Below are positions 10,044 through 46,389 of a stretch of 64,000 nucleotides of DNA, piece by piece. Positions within the stretch are counted from its first letter, which is position 1. The number at the start of each line of letters is the position of its first letter. A program made the position numbers and the translations under genes. The stretch comes from a virus. The stretch covers positions 1 to 64,000 of IMG/VR virus record IMGVR_UViG_3300009159_000064. One strand, 5' to 3'. The notes beneath the pieces were generated by a model. It did no database searches. It was not told where the DNA came from and saw nothing but the letters and a program-made list of their open reading frames with translations.

Positions 10044-11669
10044 TTATTTTGATTCTGTCCATCCATAACTGGCGAGCACTGCATTCGCATTGCTGACATT
10101 CTCATCGTTGATCAAGTTGCCATCAAAGTTAAACTCAACTCCATCCAGCACCGCATTCAACACTCCGCACTTCGCATCAACGATTGCGAACAGTCGCTCA
10201 TCAATCGTGAGATCACCTTCAATGCATCCGAGCATGATGTGCGAAACTACTTCACGAGTCTGACCACGACGAGCCAAGCGATCTTCACACTGCATCAAGT
10301 CTGCACTCGTCCAGCATCCTTCAGCGTTCACATGATGGCGACCACTGGTGAGTGTGATGCCAACTCCCGATGCGATGACATTGCCCACCAGCACATTCGC
10401 ACTGCCACTTTGAAATGCTTCAACACTTGCATTCTTTGCCGAGTCACTCATGCCACCTTCAATGCGCACGACATTGCACATCTCGCCATTCGGCATTTCA
10501 TATTTGGCGAAATGATTTACATAAGCCTGCGCAACTGCTCGGTGAGTACAAGTGATGAAGACCTGCTCATTCTCGTCCAGCAGATTCTTCACATACTGCA
10601 CGACTCCAGCAACCTTGCCATGACCCACGATGTCACGCAATGTGTTAATCCTAGAAATTGCTTCAGCCTTCATCGCACGCTCTGCACTGGGTGTACCTTT
10701 CATGTCTTCAATGTATTGAAACAGATCTGCTTCAGCCTCCATGTACTTGTCGGCAATCGCTGGAGCAATTTCTATGTAGTGCTTCACACGACCCTTATTC
10801 GGGAGCGTGAGCACCTCGCTTCGCAATCTGCGAATCATGATGCCATCCTTGAGTCGTGCATGGAGTTCATCCAAGTGTGCGACTCCACGAGTACCAAAGC
10901 GATCAATTCTCGGTGCGAACTTGCCAAGAAAATAATCAAAGCCATCAAGATTATTTGTGGCGAAGTCATTCAAGCGATCAATCACCAGCAATGTTGGGAT
11001 CAGATCCTTCGGATGATTGATCAATGCTGTACCACTCATGGCAACTCTGATCGCTCCTGCTGGCAATGCTCGTGCGATCTCCACAACTGCATCAGAGCGT
11101 TTGCTACGGGTGCTCTTCATGCGATGACACTCGTCTACAACTATCGCTTTCACAACTTCTTTCAACTGCGATTTGTAACCTTCAACTGACAAGTCGCCCA
11201 TCAACAGAACATCACACTCAGGCAATGGCACTGGAGTACCACCGATGACTCGCTTTGATTTACGACCAGTCTTCGGATCTTTGACTTCAACAGTCTTTCC
11301 ACCAATCACTGGAGTACCTTTGCCAGTGATCTTCTGTACATTCAGCGATGGTGCGAACATCTTGAACTCTTTGATCCAGTTCAATCGCAAGTGTGGAGGC
11401 ACGACTACGAGCACTGGCTTCATCCCAGCCTCCACAGCAGACTTGATGATGCAAACAGCCTGCGCAGTTTTTCCAACACCCATCTCATCACCAATAAGGA
11501 CTCCACGATTCTTGAGAACCATTTGCACAGCATCAATCTGATAATCACTCAGTGGCAATGCAGTTGATGCCATCGCAATTTCTTGCAGTGGCATCTGTGG
11601 TACTTGAACTGAATTACTTTTATTTGCGATGAAACTATTCAACGCTTGAATTGCATTTTGATTTGACAT
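10044..11669 (-). CDS. SNF2-family (superfamily 2) helicase
   Basis: A 541-residue DNA-dependent ATPase. Q/Walker A region LSDYQIDAVQM then GDEMGVGKT (60-68); motif Ia VVVPPHLRLNW; Walker B VVDECH (box DECH, 179-182); motif III MSGTALIN; C-terminal RecA-like lobe with the ASGVGITLTSGRHHV and DLMQCEDRLARRGQ motifs (V and VI, arginine fingers). This is the SNF2/SMARCAL1-type arrangement, acting on DNA forks or displacing proteins. It is the last gene of the long minus-strand transcript before the bidirectional terminator. AGAAGGGG precedes the ATG. A second SNF2-type helicase lies at 40493-42037. Base use looks more GC-rich than in most of the window. Confidence 0.9.
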   Translation of the reverse strand: MSNQNAIQALNSFIANKSNSVQVPQMPLQEIAMASTALPLSDYQIDAVQMVLKNRGVLIGDEMGVGKTAQAVCIIKSAVEAGMKPVLVVVPPHLRLNWIKEFKMFAPSLNVQKITGKGTPVIGGKTVEVKDPKTGRKSKRVIGGTPVPLPECDVLLMGDLSVEGYKSQLKEVVKAIVVDECHRMKSTRSKRSDAVVEIARALPAGAIRVAMSGTALINHPKDLIPTLLVIDRLNDFATNNLDGFDYFLGKFAPRIDRFGTRGVAHLDELHARLKDGIMIRRLRSEVLTLPNKGRVKHYIEIAPAIADKYMEAEADLFQYIEDMKGTPSAERAMKAEAISRINTLRDIVGHGKVAGVVQYVKNLLDENEQVFITCTHRAVAQAYVNHFAKYEMPNGEMCNVVRIEGGMSDSAKNASVEAFQSGSANVLVGNVIASGVGITLTSGRHHVNAEGCWTSADLMQCEDRLARRGQTREVVSHIMLGCIEGDLTIDERLFAIVDAKCGVLNAVLDGVEFNFDGNLINDENVSNANAVLASYGWTESK

Positions 11670-23380: not shown

Positions 23381-24817
23381 TCAGTTATCTTCGCTTAAGT
23401 CAAGTATTTCCGAGTACATAGCATCAGCCTGTTGGCGATTAAACCCACCATCGGTTAGTTGTTTGGTTGCGTTTCCCACACCGTTACCGAACAAACGACT
23501 CAAAACTCCACTGCTACCTCTTGCTTCAACTTCCAGTCTGACCATATCTCTAGTATCGGATATGTCTTTAAACTTCTCTACAAATGAGAACAATCTATCT
23601 ATCTCATCGGACAATGCTGGGTCAAGCCCTTGTCCTTCAAGCTCTTCAGCAAAGCGAGCAAACAAAACACGACTTACTTGCATCTCTAACATTGCTCGTA
23701 ATGCAGCTTGTAATTGATCTTTTGTTTTGATCTCAACAGGTAACTTAAAACCACATTCTGAATTCTCACGAAACGCAGGACAACGTGCCGAGAGATAGCA
23801 ACTATTGCACTGTCTTAAAAGGTTAGAATTATACCTAATTGTAGATACTGATTCTATACTTATTTCCCCATCTTCTCCATGTTCTGCAAGGGTTTCTGCT
23901 AATGGACTTGAATACTGTTCCACTCCCATTATTGGTAATATCATCTTTTCTGTTTCGTGCCGCTTTTCTACCCCCCTTATAGCAACACTTGCACCCCCTT
24001 GTGCCACTTTTTGAGAAATTGCATTTTGGTCGGTATAGTTGCTATTGCTATCATTATCTAATAGACCCATTTCTTGTTCATCATCGTCTTTTGTGGGGTC
24101 ATAGACCCCAAAAGTTTGATTCTCCCAAGCCTTCCATGACATGATTGCAAGTTTGGCTACTTCGTTATTATCATCTTGAATGATTGCATCTATGTCTAAA
24201 CCTAATCTTTGTATATCTGCTCTGTGTTTTTTGCGGGACGAATCTTTTTGTTGTGCGGGATATCTTCGCAAGCCATGACCATCCCATACTTGTGTTTCCC
24301 CATAACGAACAGCACTAGTCCAAGAACCTACTAAGGCTGAGTCCCACGGAATAGTCTCCAGAATGTCTGGCTTAGAAGACACGGCTATTAGTTTTGCATC
24401 CCAACGAGTCATGGCATTTCTAATTTTAGAAACAGTTTTACCATTTATTGCTTTGTCGCTTATCGCTGCTTTTCCATACTTCTGACAAAGCCATGACAAG
24501 CGTTCTAGGTCGTCAGGATCATTCCATAATGGTACATACCGATCACCAAGCCAAGAGCCATCATAATCTGGGCGACCAATAATGTGGGTCAAACTCTCGT
24601 AATGCTCCCTTACAAAAGAATCGTAACGTGTTATATCCTCATCATTTTCTGAGGTATAAAGAGTTATCTCCCCGCCATTAAACATGGCGGTTAAATCTAA
24701 TTCTTTCTTTTTTGGTATTGCTAAATGGGTAAGGTTTACAGCAAATCTGGTAACACCCGAAGCAAGCAATAGTGAGCGAAATGATGACTTCTCAGAGTTA
24801 GCAAAGTATATTTTCAT
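23381..24817 (-). CDS. Large protein of unknown function with a cysteine cluster
   Basis: A 478-residue protein. N-terminal 250 residues are alpha/beta with MKIYFANSEKSSFRSLLLAS, an inner pattern like SLTHIIGRPDYDGSWLGDRY and VGSWTSAVRYGETQVWDGHG; around residue 340 comes a cysteine cluster CNSCYLSARCPAF..NSECGF, typical of an iron-sulfur or zinc site; the C-terminus is helical. The domain order, with an N-terminal alpha/beta part and a Cys cluster, is not one I can name. It heads a chain of three genes with four-base overlaps (23381-25775), all of which look like parts of one pathway. Confidence 0.6.
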   Translation of the reverse strand: MKIYFANSEKSSFRSLLLASGVTRFAVNLTHLAIPKKKELDLTAMFNGGEITLYTSENDEDITRYDSFVREHYESLTHIIGRPDYDGSWLGDRYVPLWNDPDDLERLSWLCQKYGKAAISDKAINGKTVSKIRNAMTRWDAKLIAVSSKPDILETIPWDSALVGSWTSAVRYGETQVWDGHGLRRYPAQQKDSSRKKHRADIQRLGLDIDAIIQDDNNEVAKLAIMSWKAWENQTFGVYDPTKDDDEQEMGLLDNDSNSNYTDQNAISQKVAQGGASVAIRGVEKRHETEKMILPIMGVEQYSSPLAETLAEHGEDGEISIESVSTIRYNSNLLRQCNSCYLSARCPAFRENSECGFKLPVEIKTKDQLQAALRAMLEMQVSRVLFARFAEELEGQGLDPALSDEIDRLFSFVEKFKDISDTRDMVRLEVEARGSSGVLSRLFGNGVGNATKQLTDGGFNRQQADAMYSEILDLSEDN

Positions 24818-29109: not shown

Positions 29110-30651
29110 TTATCCTTTGTTAGTTGGTCGGCTACCACGAGATGCATTTTGCGCTCGTGGATGCCCTGATGTTGCATTACCTGAAGTGCTGGCAGTTACC
29201 CCGCCTTTACCTGAACTAGTTGCTCTACCTGAAGTAGTTGCAGTTACTGGTCCATATCCACCGCTTATCTTTTGTGTGTGTGTATTACCAACTGTTGCGC
29301 CAACTGCATTGTTTATGTTACCACCAGCATATGCACCTTTGTTAACACTGTAATCCCCACCAGACGTAGGTGGTTCTGGAGCATTTTGTTTTGCTGGGGC
29401 AGAATACGGCGAAGCTGGTGCAGACGTTTGTGGTGCAGACGCTTGCGGTGCAGACGCTTGCGGTGCAGACGCTGTAGGTGGTTGTAATGCTTGTGGTGCT
29501 GAAGATTGTGGTGCTGAAGCAGATGGCCTAACCATTGATTGTGCCCAATTCTTTGCGCCTTGACCAAAATGACTCATTCTTTCCCTAAGGCGTGGTGGTA
29601 GCACTGTGCTTTGTTCACCATCATTAACTGTTTCTTTTTCATGATCAAACAGTTTTACTTCTGGCTCACCATTTAGATGTTCCCAAGCCTTTGGGTCGGA
29701 TGGGCCAAATAGGGGTACATCTGTGCGTGGGTACCCTATTTCAGCTACTGGTTTTGGTGCAGTTCCTGCTTTTTGTTCTGCTACCGTACCAAAAATACTT
29801 TTTGGCATAGCATCAGATGAAGATGAAGATGCTGGATCACGGCGTGTAGGTGTTGTCTCTAGAGGATCTACAGGATTTGCTGCTTTTTGCTCTGCATATG
29901 TACCAAACATGTTTGGCTTTAATGCAGGAGTACTTGGGTCTTCAGTTTTTTTAGAAATCTCGGTAAACTTTTCTTTAGCCATTGGAAGAGAAATGCTATT
30001 CATGTCACTAACAGATACTTGGTTTAACGTATCTACAAGAGAAGTTTTTGGAGTTTTTGCAATTTCAGAAGTTACTGCATCTGATGGAGCACTTGTTGCA
30101 TCAGCTTTTTCTTTAGATGCTTCTCTTGCAGCACGCTCTCTTGCAGTGCGAGCTGCTTGTTGTTCTGGAGTCCTTGTACGTGAAGATTTAGTTCTTGCTG
30201 GGGTAGCATCGGCGGTAGCATCGGCGGTAGCATCGGAAACTTTGCCCACTACGGCTTCTACTGCAGGAGTCATATTCTTTCCTGCGCCGCTAGCCTTGCC
30301 TTTTTTACCTTTTTTACTTGCCATGTCAGCATCCTTTGTAATAGTAGTAGTAGTTCCTTGATACGAAGTTCCTTCAGGGTAATATTTGTTTGGTCCTATC
30401 TTGTATGAACCGCCAGCTTCTCTTACATCAGCAAGAATTTGCTCATAATCTGCTGTAGATGGATTTAACCGTCTTTTTTTCTCTTTTGCTAATTGTTCTG
30501 GAGTAATGCCTAGATTCTTTTTGTCGGTACGTGCATCCTGCCTTTTCCTTTTTGCAACTTCGTCAGGTGGCAATAAATCAATCATTTCTTGTGCCGACAT
30601 CACTGGCACGCCGTCCTCATTTACCTTTGGTTTCTTTGCTTTTTTAGCCAT
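29110..30651 (-). CDS. Long disordered protein with APQAS repeats
   Basis: A 513-residue protein, lysine-rich at the N-terminus (MAKKAKKPKVNEDGVPVMSA), then mostly disordered with A/P/S/T/Q repeats such as SAPQASAPQASAPQTSAP around residue 420. A structured island near residue 440 (DYSVNKGAYAGGNINNAVGA) matches one in the 27122 gene. Two further Met/GTG starts upstream (30669) are possible. It resembles head-scaffold or decoration-like proteins only by composition. Function unknown. Confidence 0.55.
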   Translation of the reverse strand: MAKKAKKPKVNEDGVPVMSAQEMIDLLPPDEVAKRKRQDARTDKKNLGITPEQLAKEKKRRLNPSTADYEQILADVREAGGSYKIGPNKYYPEGTSYQGTTTTITKDADMASKKGKKGKASGAGKNMTPAVEAVVGKVSDATADATADATPARTKSSRTRTPEQQAARTARERAAREASKEKADATSAPSDAVTSEIAKTPKTSLVDTLNQVSVSDMNSISLPMAKEKFTEISKKTEDPSTPALKPNMFGTYAEQKAANPVDPLETTPTRRDPASSSSSDAMPKSIFGTVAEQKAGTAPKPVAEIGYPRTDVPLFGPSDPKAWEHLNGEPEVKLFDHEKETVNDGEQSTVLPPRLRERMSHFGQGAKNWAQSMVRPSASAPQSSAPQALQPPTASAPQASAPQASAPQTSAPASPYSAPAKQNAPEPPTSGGDYSVNKGAYAGGNINNAVGATVGNTHTQKISGGYGPVTATTSGRATSSGKGGVTASTSGNATSGHPRAQNASRGSRPTNKG

Positions 30652-30704
30652 GGGCGTTACATTCTCCACTGAAGACGAATTAGACTCTCCTACTTTACCA
30701 CAAG

Positions 30705-40492: not shown

Positions 40493-42037
40493 TCATACCT
40501 CACTGTTGGTTATAAACTCGGATAAAGCACCTAATGTAAGTTTGTAGTCACCTTTAACATCGTAACCACCATCTATAAATGCTTTATTGATATTTCTCTT
40601 CTCTTGCAACATTTCATATTGTCTTTCCTCAATGCTACCCTTCATAACGAAAGAAACAACATTGACGTGTGGAAATTTTGAAGACAATCTGATAATACGT
40701 GCTTCTCTTTGATCTAGTTTGCCAGCAGACCAAGGAAGGTCATAAGAAATAAGGTAGTTAGCAACTGGTAGATCTACACCATAGCCACCTGCATCTGAAG
40801 ATAAAAACAATCTAACATTTGGGTCTTGAGAAAATTGCTGTTTGGAGTTGTCTCTATCTAGCATACTCATTCCTCCCATAAACAAAACGCTTCTTGCAAC
40901 GTGTTTAGTGGCTTCTTGAATAAGTCGTAAGTTCTCTTTAAAGAAGGAGAAGAGAACAACTTTATTAGCTGGGTTCTGTTCTAGTACATCTTCTATGTAC
41001 TGTATCACTGCTTCTAACTTAGGTGTACCTGATGTGGGTGGCAAGATTCCTTGATTGATTAATTTGTTAGCGTACTCACTTCCATGAGTATTGGTTGCAT
41101 CTGCATATTGTTTTGCAGACCAATGAACTAAGGATGGGTTGTCACAAAACATTCTAAGGACAATTAGTTTTGACATGATGTCACCTTGGGCTTCTTTATT
41201 TCCCGATGATCCATAATAGTGACTCCAGATATCAAAACTTCTACCTGCCTGCGTCATAGCTTTTTGAATGGAGTTCAGTAAATCATTAGCTATCTTTCTA
41301 TACACAACTGCACCAGCAGTGTCAAAAGGAACGGGTATTACTTGTTGTATAACTTGTGGCAATTGATCGGCAATGTCTTCTCTAGTTTTGCGAATCATTA
41401 CCCCTTCCATGCTCTGGTGTAACCGTTTTAGGTTACGGTATCTATTTGGCTTACCATAGTGATCTCGGACAATAAAAGTCCTATCAAACACATCTACTTT
41501 GCCAAGAACTTTGGGGTCAACAAACTCCATAATAGAAAACAGTTCTTCTGGTTTGTTCTCAATTGGCTGTCCTGTCAAAGCAAACCTGTAGTGATACCTC
41601 TTGCCAATGCGCTTTATTAAACGTGACCTTCTTGCTTTGGCAGATTTGATAATGGTTGCTTCATCTACAACTATGGCATCAAAGGTATGTTTGTCAAAGT
41701 CAGCTATATCGTTCTTTAAAGATTCGGAATTGACAATAACATAAGTGGAACTAAGTGAGGTTCTCCATTGTTTCTTGCGAGTGCTGATTGTACCATCAAT
41801 GACCGTGCACGAAGAATCCGTAAAGCGTTTTATCTCACGCTCCCATTGATATTTTAGGGAAGACGGAACAACAATCAATGTTTTCTTTATTTCTTGTTGA
41901 TCTTTCAAAGACTCTAGTGCGGAAAGAGTTGTAATGGTCTTACCAGCGCCCATGACTAAGGCCAATAGCATTTGACCTCTGTCAACCATTGAGTCTGAAG
42001 CTTCCTGCTGAAAAGGGTATAAGTTACCTTTAAACAT
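40493..42037 (-). CDS. SNF2-family helicase
   Basis: A 514-residue superfamily 2 DNA translocase. Walker A LVMGAGKT (27-34), motif Ia VVPSSLKYQW, Walker B VVDEATIIK (DEAT box near 125-128), motif III LTGQPIENK, motif V LFLSSDAGGYGVDL and motif VI DLPWSAGKLDQREARIIR. Its C-terminal lobe is complete. Starts at MFKGNLYPFQ with an eight-base overlap (ATGTTTAA) with the primase gene. A second SNF2 helicase in the window lies at 10044-11669, with little obvious sequence match between the two. Confidence 0.9.
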   Translation of the reverse strand: MFKGNLYPFQQEASDSMVDRGQMLLALVMGAGKTITTLSALESLKDQQEIKKTLIVVPSSLKYQWEREIKRFTDSSCTVIDGTISTRKKQWRTSLSSTYVIVNSESLKNDIADFDKHTFDAIVVDEATIIKSAKARRSRLIKRIGKRYHYRFALTGQPIENKPEELFSIMEFVDPKVLGKVDVFDRTFIVRDHYGKPNRYRNLKRLHQSMEGVMIRKTREDIADQLPQVIQQVIPVPFDTAGAVVYRKIANDLLNSIQKAMTQAGRSFDIWSHYYGSSGNKEAQGDIMSKLIVLRMFCDNPSLVHWSAKQYADATNTHGSEYANKLINQGILPPTSGTPKLEAVIQYIEDVLEQNPANKVVLFSFFKENLRLIQEATKHVARSVLFMGGMSMLDRDNSKQQFSQDPNVRLFLSSDAGGYGVDLPVANYLISYDLPWSAGKLDQREARIIRLSSKFPHVNVVSFVMKGSIEERQYEMLQEKRNINKAFIDGGYDVKGDYKLTLGALSEFITNSEV

Positions 42038-42953
42038 GTAACCACCATGGAAACACCGATGCTTTAGAAATAGCTTCATGTATCTCTGAGTCTGTCATAT
42101 CACCAATATCTTTTGCTGTTGTGTGAGCATACTTCAACCATAGTACTGGCTGTCTAAATGCTGGAAGACTTAAATATAATTTTTGGGCAGAAGCAATACC
42201 AGCGCTGTCATTATCTAATGCAATTATAAGTTTGTTTACATGATAGGACATCAACTCTATTTGCTTCTTACTAACATGCGCACCAAACGAAGCAATACCA
42301 CAACAACCACTAACGGCAGTATGGATGCGCACAACATCAAGGGGAGACTCAACCAAGATGCATGTATCACAATCCGCTTTGTCCATACCGAATAAGGTAT
42401 TGGATTTAATAACACCAACAGGGTAGTTTAAAACTTTATCCTTTGATTTAGTCTGCCAACCCAATAGTTCTCCAAGTGGTGACACTATTGGTATTATCCA
42501 TGCGTTATCTTTCGCATCCCATCTAATGCCATACCTGCGTATTGCTTCTCTATCTAGATTGCGAGATGTCAACATGTCATCGGAGGGCACTTGAAACTTA
42601 CTGAAAGTAAACCAGTCAACTTCGGCTGTAGGTTTCTCAACAGATATTGGGTTTAATAATCGAGACAACCCTCCTTGAATAAGAAATTCGTGTACTGCAA
42701 CAATAGAATCAGGTTCTCCAGTAAGGTCAGAAACCAAATGAGATAGTGTGCCACGAGCACCACATGAGTAACATAACCATAAACCGCTTGAAGCATTCAT
42801 GGACCATGATGGCGATCTATCTGCTTTGCCAGTGTTCTTTAGGTGAACTGGGCAACGTGCAGATATCTCAGTATCACCTACTCGTACAACATCAACTCCT
42901 AGTTGCCTAAGAACTTCTGCAAGATCAGTAGTACCATGAATCGCTGTCATCAT
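42030..42953 (-). CDS. DNA primase (CHC2 zinc finger, TOPRIM)
   Basis: A 307-residue DnaG-type primase. Zinc finger CPVH (C34, H37) and CYSC (C61, C64), then an RNA polymerase-like core and a TOPRIM domain: ILVESPLDVVRI (E202, D206) and LIIALDNDSAG (D247, D249). Synthesises RNA primers on ssDNA together with the DnaB-like helicase next to it. Start chosen at 42953, with GGAGAGG nine bases upstream, rather than the more upstream in-frame ATG. Overlaps the helicase gene's stop. Confidence 0.9.
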   Translation of the reverse strand: MMTAIHGTTDLAEVLRQLGVDVVRVGDTEISARCPVHLKNTGKADRSPSWSMNASSGLWLCYSCGARGTLSHLVSDLTGEPDSIVAVHEFLIQGGLSRLLNPISVEKPTAEVDWFTFSKFQVPSDDMLTSRNLDREAIRRYGIRWDAKDNAWIIPIVSPLGELLGWQTKSKDKVLNYPVGVIKSNTLFGMDKADCDTCILVESPLDVVRIHTAVSGCCGIASFGAHVSKKQIELMSYHVNKLIIALDNDSAGIASAQKLYLSLPAFRQPVLWLKYAHTTAKDIGDMTDSEIHEAISKASVFPWWLHV

Positions 42954-44184
42954 TATCATCATCCTCTCCAACCTCTGTAAAGTCCATGTTATTCCAATCC
43001 CAGTTAATTCTGATCTCACCTAATGGAGCAGAACGAGCAAGTACTACACGGATAATAGATTGATTGTCTATGTCAGGATCAGACTCCACACCAACGATTA
43101 GGTCTGAGTCTTGGGCAAAAGAAGATGTGTATCCAATTGAATCAGCAGTGATGCGCCTTGACTTCTTGTTACCTAACTTCCAAGACAGTACCTGTGTTGT
43201 CCCAATGACTGGAATGTCAGAATTTTGTGCAAGTCGCTTAAGTGAGCGAGTGATGTTAGTTAATGCTTGAGGAGATCCTTTGGGTTCACCATTCTCATCG
43301 TCCATTAAGTAAACACCGTCAACAAATAAGATGTCGGGCTTAAACTCTTTTACCTTTGCGGCAAGCGCACTAACCGTTGTCAGAGATGATGTATCTTCTG
43401 TAACAATAAATGGGTGCATGTTCTTTCTCATGCGTAAGGTGTCCGTTATCTTTGCTAGTTCATTATTGGTGAGTGAACCACGAAGAATATTTGTGTACGA
43501 GACTTTAGAAACAATTGCGTCGTAACGTGCTGCTTGCTCTTCTGCTGACATTTCAAACGATACAAATAACGGAGATTTTCCGTGAAGGTGAGCAGCGTTA
43601 GCCATGATTAGCGTCATCAATGACTTACCCTTTTTAGCTTCACCTACAAAGGTAATCAACTGCTGTGGTCTAAAGCCAGATGTTATTCTGTCAAGACCCA
43701 GTAACCCAGTAGGTATACCACGTAAGGCATTAGGTGTACTTTGTAATTCTTTGTACTTGTCAACTCGTTGTTCCCAAGTGTCAATCAAGTTAATATCACG
43801 AAGTCGTGCAGTCTCTGCTGAGGCTAACTGCACACCCTTAGATAATTCAAGAAGTGCTTTTGCTGTATCCCCTGATTCCAAAGATGGTACAGCTAAAGCC
43901 ATCGCCTCTAGCAAATTGCGATGTCTGTATGAGTTATAAACCTCATCAATTAGCGCAGTGAATGGTTCTTCTTCCGCACTGATTAAACGAATATCACCAA
44001 ACTCTTGGCTTAGTGCACGCTTTGTTGGCACCTCTCCATGATCTCGCCAAAAGGTGACAACCCATGACCATACCTTTGACCACTCTTTGGTAAAGTGATC
44101 TTCTTTAACTCCAGACTTTAAAGCAACAGTTAAGTCTTTAGTTTGTATTACCTTGCTGATTAAGAGATGTTCTGCACTAGCCAT
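42925..44184 (-). CDS. DnaB-like replicative helicase
   Basis: A 419-residue protein with an N-terminal helical domain and a RecA-like motor: Walker A GEAKKGKS (181-188), Walker B DILFVDGVYLM, H3-type IPVIGTTQVLSWK and H4-like end. It unwinds the phage fork in front of the polymerase. Starts at the ATG overlapping the upstream TAA (TAATG). Directly next to a DnaC-like loader and the primase, so the block is a primosome. Confidence 0.9.
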   Translation of the reverse strand: MASAEHLLISKVIQTKDLTVALKSGVKEDHFTKEWSKVWSWVVTFWRDHGEVPTKRALSQEFGDIRLISAEEEPFTALIDEVYNSYRHRNLLEAMALAVPSLESGDTAKALLELSKGVQLASAETARLRDINLIDTWEQRVDKYKELQSTPNALRGIPTGLLGLDRITSGFRPQQLITFVGEAKKGKSLMTLIMANAAHLHGKSPLFVSFEMSAEEQAARYDAIVSKVSYTNILRGSLTNNELAKITDTLRMRKNMHPFIVTEDTSSLTTVSALAAKVKEFKPDILFVDGVYLMDDENGEPKGSPQALTNITRSLKRLAQNSDIPVIGTTQVLSWKLGNKKSRRITADSIGYTSSFAQDSDLIVGVESDPDIDNQSIIRVVLARSAPLGEIRINWDWNNMDFTEVGEDDDNDDSDSWYY

Positions 44185-44624
44185 TATGCTGACCACGCAG
44201 TCTTAGTAGAAACAACTGTTGACCTAAACCCAATAATCTTTGCGTGCTCTTCATCAGATGTGTACACCTTCTTTATTGATGGAAAAAATCTTAAGTCGTG
44301 TGCTAGTTCTTCAATCGTTGCGTAGGCAAAAACTGAAGTAGATATCCCTTTTCTAACTAACCACTTCTCAATACTGTCAACAAGATACCCTGGCAATAGA
44401 GTATAAACAACTATCCCTACCTGATATCTACTAATTAAATCAATAGCATGTTTGATAGGAACATCATTAGTCTGCCATTGTGCTAGATACTGGTCCCAGT
44501 TCTTACCAGCTTGAGCAACAATTGATCTTGCTTTTTTTATACCTGTAGGTTCTGAAGCTAGTACTCCCTCAAACATTGTGGCTTGAGATATCGGAGAAAA
44601 ATCAGATAGGTCATTCCCCTGCAT
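44184..44624 (-). CDS. Hypothetical alpha/beta protein, HAD-like tail
   Basis: A 146-residue protein starting MQGNDLSDFSPISQATMFEG. After a helix-rich first half comes IDLISRYQVGIVVYTLLPGY and a strand-helix alternation ending EHAKIIGFRSTVVSTKTAWS, which recalls the end of a Rossmann/HAD-like domain. No catalytic motif of either family is complete. It overlaps the DnaC-like C-terminal frame by 14 bases, so it may be a replication accessory. Confidence 0.5.
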   Translation of the reverse strand: MQGNDLSDFSPISQATMFEGVLASEPTGIKKARSIVAQAGKNWDQYLAQWQTNDVPIKHAIDLISRYQVGIVVYTLLPGYLVDSIEKWLVRKGISTSVFAYATIEELAHDLRFFPSIKKVYTSDEEHAKIIGFRSTVVSTKTAWSA

Positions 44625-44901
44625 AATGCTCCATTGCACGATAGTCCTTGCCCAAGAACGGCAAAACACAACAGCACTCACTTAAAATTGACTTAACACG
44701 AGGTCCGTAAATATCGCTTAAACGCGATAATGGAATTTCGCTAGTGATGATCGTTATCAACTGCTGTTCGTATCTGCTGTTCAGCATTGACGTAATCGCT
44801 TTCTTTGTAAAGTCGGTCATTCTTTCTGAACCTAAGTTGTCCAACACTAAAATGTCATAAACAGAGTGAATGTACTTAAGCATGTGCTCATCTCCGTACA
44901 T
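44611..44901 (-). pseudogene. DnaC/IstB-like loader, C-terminal part (frame 2)
   Basis: A 96-residue frame continuing the ATPase core of the preceding gene: VYDILVLDNLG (Walker B), then RMTDFTKKAITSMLNSRY and LITIITSEIPLSRLSD (sensor I and the arginine-finger region). It opens at about 44931, immediately behind a TGA, and its apparent ATG at 44901 has no good Shine-Dalgarno. It belongs with 44847-45257: together they give one DnaC-like ATPase of about 213 residues if a -1 shift occurs between 44931 and 44925. It may be real frameshifting, a mutation or a sequencing error. Confidence 0.6.
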
Positions 44902-45257
44902 CTCTGAAGCTCGTGGTCTGGATTCATCTCGTCATAGGATGCTTCTACAAACTTTTCTGCTGTAATAAAGAAGCCACTTAAAAAGTTGTTTAGTACAACT
45001 TCCCTAAGCACTCCGCAAGCAACATGAGTTTTACCACTGCCAGAACCGCCAAACAAATACAAACCTTCGCCACATTCTCTATTGTGTTCAATGTTGTCAA
45101 TCCACTGTTGAGAGTATGTAACAACATCGGGACTACCTAATTTGGTGTCATAATCATTTAATGTTTTTTTAACAAACCGTTTGGGTATGTGCGCATTTTT
45201 AAGTCGCTCTTCAGGTTGCCTATTGCGCCAGTACTTGGCAGATCTCCACTCAGTCAT
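44847..45257 (-). pseudogene. DnaC/IstB-like helicase loader, N-terminal part (frame 1)
   Basis: A frame of 136 codons beginning MTEWRSAKYWRNRQPEERLK. The Walker A GGSGSGKT (70-77) and the following THVACGVLREVVLN, then FFITAEKFVEASYDE, are typical of DnaC/IstB-type helicase-loading ATPases. After residue 110 the sequence stops making sense (MNPDHELQRCTEMSTC) and no Walker B follows; instead it appears in the -1 frame at 44611-44901. It would load the neighbouring DnaB-like helicase on the origin. N-terminal half is intact. Confidence 0.6.
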
Positions 45258-45651
45258 TACTACCCCTTTTCAGTCTCTTGTCCACAGTGTATTCCGAGTA
45301 ATCAAATTTTGCTATCGGAGTGTCAACTTTCTTCTTTAATGAATCTAACCTCGATGCAAAGCCTTTCCAAGTAGGAACATCTTGGGGTAACGGAGTCTGC
45401 TTTATCTCATGAGCAAACATGTCAATCATTTTGTAAATCTGCTCAACAGTTACTCCCTTGCTTTTTAGAGTTTTAAAGATTTTCATCAAAGCTATGCCGT
45501 TGATTGGAGCATTCAAAGTCATGGCTGACCCTGTAGTCACATCTCTGAAGTAGTTAACCATCCCACCGTTGTACGGTTTCTTCTCAACAGGAAATTTAAT
45601 AACAGGTTCATCTGCTCCTATAGTTTTGCCGCCCCAATCGTCATTCTTCAT
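45250..45651 (-). CDS. Hypothetical protein
   Basis: A 133-residue protein, MKNDDWGGKTIGADEPVIKF, then NYFRDVTTGSAMTLNAPING and helical MKIFKTLKSKGVTVEQIYKM. It overlaps the DnaC-like gene by eight bases and the next upstream gene by 11; within the initiator/loader block. Possibly a replication partner; no family recognised. Confidence 0.6.
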   Translation of the reverse strand: MKNDDWGGKTIGADEPVIKFPVEKKPYNGGMVNYFRDVTTGSAMTLNAPINGIALMKIFKTLKSKGVTVEQIYKMIDMFAHEIKQTPLPQDVPTWKGFASRLDSLKKKVDTPIAKFDYSEYTVDKRLKRGSND

Positions 45652-45808
45652 TCCAAGTAGGCTTTCCTTTTGGACCAACAAAACGAACTCTAATTTTTTT
45701 ACCGTTTTCTACTGGGGTTAAAGACATCCGTGAAGACAATACTTCCTTGCCCTTTTCATTTAATTCTTTGATGCTGTACTCCCACATCCATACCATTCCT
45801 TTTGCCAT
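45641..45808 (-). CDS. Hypothetical small basic protein
   Basis: A 55-residue protein (MAKGMVWMWEYSIKELNEKG), with KKIRVRFVGPKGKPTW at the end, looking like a small beta barrel or KOW-like element. GGAGAG lies nine bases before the ATG at 45808. Function unknown. Confidence 0.55.
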   Translation of the reverse strand: MAKGMVWMWEYSIKELNEKGKEVLSSRMSLTPVENGKKIRVRFVGPKGKPTWNEE

Positions 45809-45810
45809 GA

Positions 45811-46389
45811 TCAAACTCTCCTGTCGTTTATACGAAGTTGCTGTGCCCAACGAGTGTCCGTTGAGTATAGATCCAGTTGCGTAAGTTTTTTAGAACTTGC
45901 TTTTTTACTTTTTTCATTCTTAGTATTATTGTTCTCTCTTATTTGGGTGACACTGGAGTCACTCAATATGAGTGTCTCTGGAGTCACCACAGTAGTGTCC
46001 CTGGAGACACCCCTCAGACCCCCAGTGTCTCTGGAGTCACCCCCATTAAGTAGTGCTTCTGCGGCTGCCGTATTGTACGTAATTACGTACACATTTGGCA
46101 TGTTCTTTCCGTATCTACCCATCTTTACAGTCTTGCGGATTACTCCAATTTCAACAAGTCTGTGCATAGCCCGAATAACAGTTCGGCGGTTATACCCAGT
46201 GTCTCTTGCAAGAACATCGTAAGTGGTAGATAAAGTTTGATCGTGAGTATTCATGTAAACAATTGCGCATGTCAAAACATGTAAAGCAACAGAATCCCCT
46301 TTCATATGTTTAACTACCCAACTAGGTATAGATACCCAAAATCCTCCTAGTTGTGTATTTTCTCCAGTGTGCACTTTTTTTATTCCCAT
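45811..46389 (-). CDS. Winged-helix replication-initiator-like protein
   Basis: A 192-residue protein. Residues about 25-105 form a winged helix: WVVKHMKGDSVALHVLTCAI, then TTYDVLARDTGYNRRTVIRA and LVEIGVIRKTVKMGRYG, the DnaD/phage O-type pattern of Rep proteins. The last 75 residues are polar and include a repeated SRDT element coded by four DNA repeats listed separately. It precedes (in transcription) a DnaC-like loader, DnaB-like helicase and primase, like lambda O-P. Probably binds the origin; the identification rests on fold pattern and context. AGAGG lies upstream of the ATG. Confidence 0.65.
   Translation of the reverse strand: MGIKKVHTGENTQLGGFWVSIPSWVVKHMKGDSVALHVLTCAIVYMNTHDQTLSTTYDVLARDTGYNRRTVIRAMHRLVEIGVIRKTVKMGRYGKNMPNVYVITYNTAAAEALLNGGDSRDTGGLRGVSRDTTVVTPETLILSDSSVTQIRENNNTKNEKSKKASSKKLTQLDLYSTDTRWAQQLRINDRRV
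45947..46041. repeat. Four iteron-like repeats in the initiator-like gene (origin candidate)
   Basis: Four copies of GTGTCTCTGGAGTCACC with small changes: 45947-45962 (GTGACACTGGAGTCAC), 45972-45988, 45995-46011 and 46025-46041. Spacing is 25, 23 and 30 bases. An AT-rich stretch (about 45899-45944, T-runs) lies directly beside them. The layout (iterons plus AT-rich tract inside an initiator gene, upstream of loader and helicase) is that of a lambda-type replication origin. Confidence 0.6.

Follow-up and report, generated by a model that had tools for sequence, protein, structure and literature searches.

A putative replication origin of the lambda O type within the initiator gene of an environmental phage family, and its covariation with the initiator's recognition helix

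The window analyzed here, a stretch of 64,000 nucleotides from IMG/VR virus record IMGVR_UViG_3300009159_000064, carries within the gene for an O-like winged-helix protein an array of four near-palindromic repeats bordered by an AT-rich tract, and we consider it likely (probability about 0.88) that the array and tract together form the phage's theta-type replication origin of the lambda O/ori kind. Origins of this kind are already known, with the mechanism and intragenic iterons of lambda O/ori described previously (PMC4488673, PMC6022878). What is new is a large environmental family that encodes its own DnaB and primase, has an apparently split initiator and carries a candidate residue-base code that can be read from its sequences. 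The features open to direct observation are the dyads, their copy number and placement, conservation at the DNA level, the AT-rich tract, the gene order and the covariation of repeat and protein. An earlier note, made from the letters of the window, had put forward a candidate lambda-type intragenic origin, and this proposal gains support from the retention of the array among relatives and from the same anatomy in lambda O. The gene and its elements are as follows.

45811-46389, minus strand: O-like initiator, 192 aa, comprising a winged helix, an iteron-encoded linker and a Lys/Asn-rich tail (PHROG 270/391/678; AlphaFold2 model; relatives)
46078-46344, minus strand: winged-helix DNA-binding domain, about residues 16-104 (alignment, AlphaFold2 model, fold matches)
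46147-46188, minus strand: recognition helix, residues 68-81 (AlphaFold2 model; covariation)
46183-46185, minus strand: Arg69 codon, second residue of the recognition helix
46025-46041: iteron 1, first in gene direction, GTGTCTCTGGAGTCACC, 0 mismatches, strict dyad motif match
45995-46011: iteron 2, GTGTCCCTGGAGACACC, 2 mismatches, strict dyad motif match
45972-45988: iteron 3, GTGTCTCTGGAGTCACC, 0 mismatches, strict dyad motif match
45947-45963: iteron 4, GTGACACTGGAGTCACT, 3 mismatches, strict dyad motif match
45887-45946: tract rich in A+T (77%) and, on the coding strand, in purines (75%); candidate DNA-unwinding element

The array of 16-17 bp near-palindromes spans positions 45947-46041. 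Each iteron is a hyphenated dyad in which two GTGWCW half-sites flank a 4-bp centre, and on the coding strand the copies read, in order, GTGACTCCAGAGACAC, GTGTCTCCAGGGACAC, GTGACTCCAGAGACAC and GTGACTCCAGTGTCAC. Their starts lie 30, 23 and 25 nt apart in the direction of the gene, and iteron 3 occupies a reading frame different from that common to the other three. The earlier note had described four 17-base copies 23-30 bases apart in the initiator coding sequence, each an imperfect dyad suited to a dimer; the copies and spacings (25, 23 and 30 nt from start to start, in order of position) are as it had placed them, and the dimer idea fits the dyads. At up to three mismatches, 0.11 matches to GTGTCTCTGGAGTCACC would be expected by chance in the window versus the four found, a number reached in 0 of 100 shuffles. 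The four iterons are the only matches to GTGTCTCTGGAGTCACC in the whole record (69,252 bp), and the only places in it where the strict motif GTGWC-N6-GWCAC occurs. When synonymous codons of the window gene were shuffled with the protein held fixed, four repeats appeared in 1 of 500 trials.

A scan of IMG/VR with the initiator and three family helicases yielded 78 distinct candidate ORFs, of which 68 core, near-complete distinct genes (33-100% protein identity) form the analyzed set; 17 aligned winged-helix domains proved too divergent for use in scanning at the DNA level. By the earlier note's own test, absence of the repeats from close relatives with conserved amino acids would have refuted its proposal. 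Instead, an array lies after the winged helix, at the same place, in 68/68 genes. Exactly four copies were scored in 64 of these; L055 and L056 were scored with three, the fourth being visible on inspection but above the mismatch limit, L089 has a true fifth copy, and the fifth copy in L079 is spurious. Start-to-start spacing in the relatives is mostly 22-30 nt. The copies occupy two reading frames in every gene, and it is therefore the DNA, not a peptide, that is conserved; which copies share a frame varies by lineage.

The 60 nt past the last repeat rank within the top 1.3% for A+T among the gene's 60-mers. This tract sits on the loader side (3′ side) of the iterons and is strand-asymmetric, and the T-rich stretch that had been noted beside the repeats (45899-45944) is borne out at 78% A+T and 65% T. 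Among relatives the tract has a mean A+T of 0.68 and falls in the top 10% of its own gene's 60-mers in 56 of 68 genes. Codons ending in A or T are commoner in the tract than elsewhere for Gln (93 v 39%), Ser (92 v 66%) and Thr (84 v 51%), with no enrichment for Lys (40 v 49%). Because the Lys codons go against the trend of the other three, this usage suggests, rather than proves, that the tract is kept by selection as DNA.

The 192-aa ORF matches PHROG profiles for O-like and replication initiation proteins (270; 391, 7e-9; 678, 7e-8), and PHROG 678 is also matched by lambda O at 1.7e-35; the window protein's profile similarity to lambda O, at 7e-8, is modest. Although the window initiator returned no match from the phage collection when used as a query, the winged helix of a relative returned annotated O proteins; this result and the PHROG profiles place the initiator in the O-like winged-helix family. 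An AlphaFold2 model built on an alignment of 17 relatives is a winged helix with a mean pLDDT of 76, rising to about 90 in the recognition helix. By Foldseek, the nearest solved folds are winged-helix regulators of the MarR/CodY kind, with TubR also near, and the nearest predicted viral folds include helix-turn-helix phage proteins and a coliphage replication protein O.

The C-terminal tail of the initiator is short, and distant relatives (L153, L155 and L166) have a one-piece initiator of about 415 aa. Homology to the C-terminal part of these long proteins is found in a separate 143-aa protein encoded next to the window initiator (hhalign probability 97, E 2.4e-11; hmmsearch 6e-7 to 5e-4). 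Thus, judging by homology, the DNA-binding part and the second part of the initiator seem to be two genes in the window family, and the 143-aa protein might perhaps contact the loader. The neighbouring genes are these.

45641-45850, minus strand: 69-aa ORF overlapping the initiator gene end, partly conserved
45250-45681, minus strand: 143-aa protein, a homologue of the long initiators' C-terminal part
44847-45257, minus strand: DnaC-like helicase loader, N-terminal part (PHROG 50, E 1.8e-16)
44611-44901, minus strand: DnaC-like loader, C-terminal part, in another frame (one frame in 180 related loci)
42925-44196, minus strand: DnaB-like replicative helicase (Pfam DnaB_C 6e-31; PHROG 19, 1e-61)
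42030-43019, minus strand: DNA primase, CHC2 zinc ribbon and Toprim (PHROG 47, 1e-46; Pfam)

A loader, DnaB-like helicase and primase therefore do lie downstream of the initiator, as the earlier note had it, together with an SNF2-type helicase, but three small ORFs are interspersed and the loader ORF is split. The likeness to the lambda O-P order is partial, as DnaB, primase and DNA polymerase are encoded here by the phage itself. The frame break in the loader is confined to the window record (0/180 related loci); the nearest relative, which over 2.2 kb is 99.1% identical, differs in this stretch by a single gap. An error of sequencing or assembly is the probable cause, or else the gene is broken. 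Elsewhere the record contains genes for the DNA polymerase, a tail sheath and a baseplate, which mark a contractile-tailed phage. End repeats were not found in the record, which is either incomplete or linear. Cumulative GC skew is no guide in this linear, mostly one-strand record and shows no clear turning point at 46 kb: in raw form it has no interior one, and after detrending its minimum falls at 47.4 kb. No match emerged when bacterial genomes were searched for a host with the helicase, both as an alignment and as a single protein. Streptomyces phages are nearest for the helicase, primase and tail sheath; the stretches read from the nearest isolates, BRock and Alone3, contain no recognizable O-like gene or dyad array.

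Strong but indirect evidence that the encoded protein binds the repeats comes from comparing relatives, in which residue 69 of the recognition helix covaries with base 3 of the half-site. Most genes have GTGWC half-sites, with GTATC in L064 and GTAG[CT] in an eleven-gene clade (L059, L067, L070 and others), and the distant long initiators have GGGTC or AGGTC. In lineages with a switched base, both arms of the dyad have changed. All 384 half-sites of Arg69 genes have G as base 3; those of Thr69 genes have A in 88 of 96 (G in 8), those of Ile69 genes A in 7 of 8 (G in 1), and those of Ser69 genes G in 55 of 56 (A in 1). Since the half-sites of one genome do not vary independently, these counts are read as three lineages rather than hundreds of trials, the 95 of 104 half-sites with A in the pooled Thr69 and Ile69 genes falling in three separate lineages. 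On the tree, the A3 state was gained at least twice fully (in L064 and in the His-Arg-Thr clade) and once partly, in L040, where 3 of 8 half-sites carry it. In L123, the sister of the His-Arg-Thr clade, residue 69 is Ser and a single half-site has the A3 state. Among 108 alignment columns, residue 69 alone is private to all three A3 lineages when they are set against 54 G3 genes, and L040 has no other private residue. His67 accompanies G at base 4, in one clade only.

We favour, with some reserve, the view that O-type initiators follow a simple, evolvable code in which residue 69 sets base 3 (Arg with G, Thr or Ile with A, Ser being permissive), with base 4 perhaps governed by residue 67 (His with G). 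Because the site lies within the gene, inheritance keeps the protein and its eight half-sites together, and new origin specificities could arise by point change, with L040 and L123 as living intermediates. Searches of the open-access literature turned up no previous description of such a code linking iterons to the recognition helix in O-type initiators.

Applied to lambda O, the scanner used for the family detected four iterons at nt 348, 368, 392 and 415 of the gene, matching the annotated ori; the first lies at nt 348 as compared with 349 in the window gene. The lambda iterons are hyphenated dyads of 18-19 bp spaced 20/24/23, intragenic like those of the window, and are followed on their 3′ side by a tract of 68% A+T and 67% purine (77% and 75% in the window). 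Both systems also have an N-terminal DNA-binding half in the initiator and a loader gene downstream. They differ in iteron sequence, in the length of the initiator, which at 192 aa is shorter than lambda O and is accompanied by the separate protein resembling the C-terminal part of its long relatives, and in the loader, which is DnaC-like (PHROG 50) and not a lambda P homologue by name. Lambda, moreover, relies on host DnaB, primase and polymerase, whereas the window phage encodes these.

A closer match to the repeats occurs in Escherichia phage mEp044, a lambdoid phage isolated on E. coli K-12, whose annotated replication protein O gene contains four intragenic GTGWC dyads (one GTGTCACTGTGACAC, three GTGACACAGAGTCAC) spaced 23/22/23, with the same half-site as in the window. 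An AT-rich tract again follows the dyads, and the recognition helix reads SKRT, placing Arg at the R69 position; unlike in the window, the dyads are 15 rather than 16 bp, the protein is longer and the genome is that of a temperate lambdoid phage. The replication genes of SfV, PhiR49_2 and PseuP_222 contain intragenic GTGCA...TGCAC repeats at nt 265-370 of the gene. Like the Arg69 genes of the family, these three pair Arg in the place of R69 with G as third base of the half-site; their base 4 is different and their arrays are less regular. These isolates played no part in finding the residue-base rule, and the counterpart of residue 69 in their helices was assigned by visual alignment. In PLE elements, the DNA-binding domain of the RepA initiator and the origin iterons also covary, and replication needs cognate pairs (PMC8263062); in contrast to the window system, RepA belongs to the RepA_N family, its origin lies outside the gene, and the change is by recombinational swapping rather than point change.

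By analogy with lambda, initiation might proceed as follows. The winged-helix protein would bind each of the four 16-bp dyads, located in the linker-coding part of its own gene, as a dimer, and the four bound dimers would form a nucleoprotein complex that strains and melts the adjoining AT-rich, purine-skewed tract. The DnaC-like loader could then place the phage's own DnaB helicase, with the phage primase and polymerase acting next, such that replication would start at the array.

The covariation would look the same if the dyads were operators, as operators often are dyads, through which the winged-helix protein represses or times the downstream replication genes while replication starts elsewhere; the nearest solved folds, being of the MarR/CodY kind, would suit such a repressor. 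We nonetheless regard this as unlikely, since the fixed spacing of the four copies and the AT-rich tract next to them, kept in nearly all 68 genes, fit an origin rather than an operator, the closest annotated viral relatives are replication proteins, and the correspondingly placed iterons of lambda are a known origin (PMC4488673). Autoregulation may exist in addition to the origin role. The presence of TubR among the nearest winged helices, and the fact that centromeres are iteron arrays, would also accommodate a partition or other nucleoprotein site bound by a TubR-like protein. That reading appears very improbable, however, given that the ten neighbouring genes scanned include no filament or ATPase partition gene and do include a loader, helicase and primase, that an AT-rich tract is present, and that O-type profiles score best.

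Two further readings dispense with protein binding to DNA and have next to no probability. Three of the four window copies share a frame and encode similar peptides, and the synonymous shuffles do give four repeats on occasion (1/500), as might be expected were the repeats to mirror a functional repeated peptide such as D-S-x-D-T. The frames of the copies refute this and we rejected it: in all 68 genes the two frames yield unlike peptides (DSRDT, VTPET), and a peptide explains neither the dyad symmetry nor the change of both arms in switched lineages. Dyad symmetry would likewise permit the repeats to fold as RNA hairpins in the mRNA, but a hairpin requires only pairing, not identical arms, whereas the arm sequence is common to all copies of a genome and tracks residue 69; the hairpin reading was rejected on this ground.

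A well-supported candidate for an intragenic origin of the lambda kind, ordinary in itself, thus appears here in a new setting. Dozens of natural genomes in the family record, with unusual clarity, how an initiator and its putative iteron sites have evolved together, and that record opens the reading code to testing. A search with lambda O as query found no matching chain in the copy of the PDB searched, and for this reason the residue-to-base rule offers a direct, cheap test of how a lambda O-type initiator reads DNA. For uncultured phage genomes, the results suggest seeking origins as dyads after the winged helix of an O-like gene.

Several minor observations were made along the way. The long initiator genes of L153, L155, L163 and L166 contain intragenic dyads, GGGTCAC...GTGACCC or AGGTCAC...GTGACCT, and that of L168 carries, at about nt 339-400, where the array usually lies, three direct non-palindromic repeats with a consensus near CACGGGCGGACAT. 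A lone degenerate dyad-like sequence in the adjoining 143-aa gene of the window (45526-45541, TGACCCTGTAGTCAC) may be due to chance, and a plus-strand ORF across the array (45854-46222) was taken as a shadow of the coding strand. Two SNF2-type helicase genes, both PHROG 62, are present on the minus strand (10044-11669 and 40493-42079), as is a queuine tRNA-ribosyltransferase-like gene (PHROG 887, 23381-24817), perhaps for modified DNA bases. Away from the replication region, a minus-strand ORF at 29110-30669 contains at least four internal 16-nt repeats.
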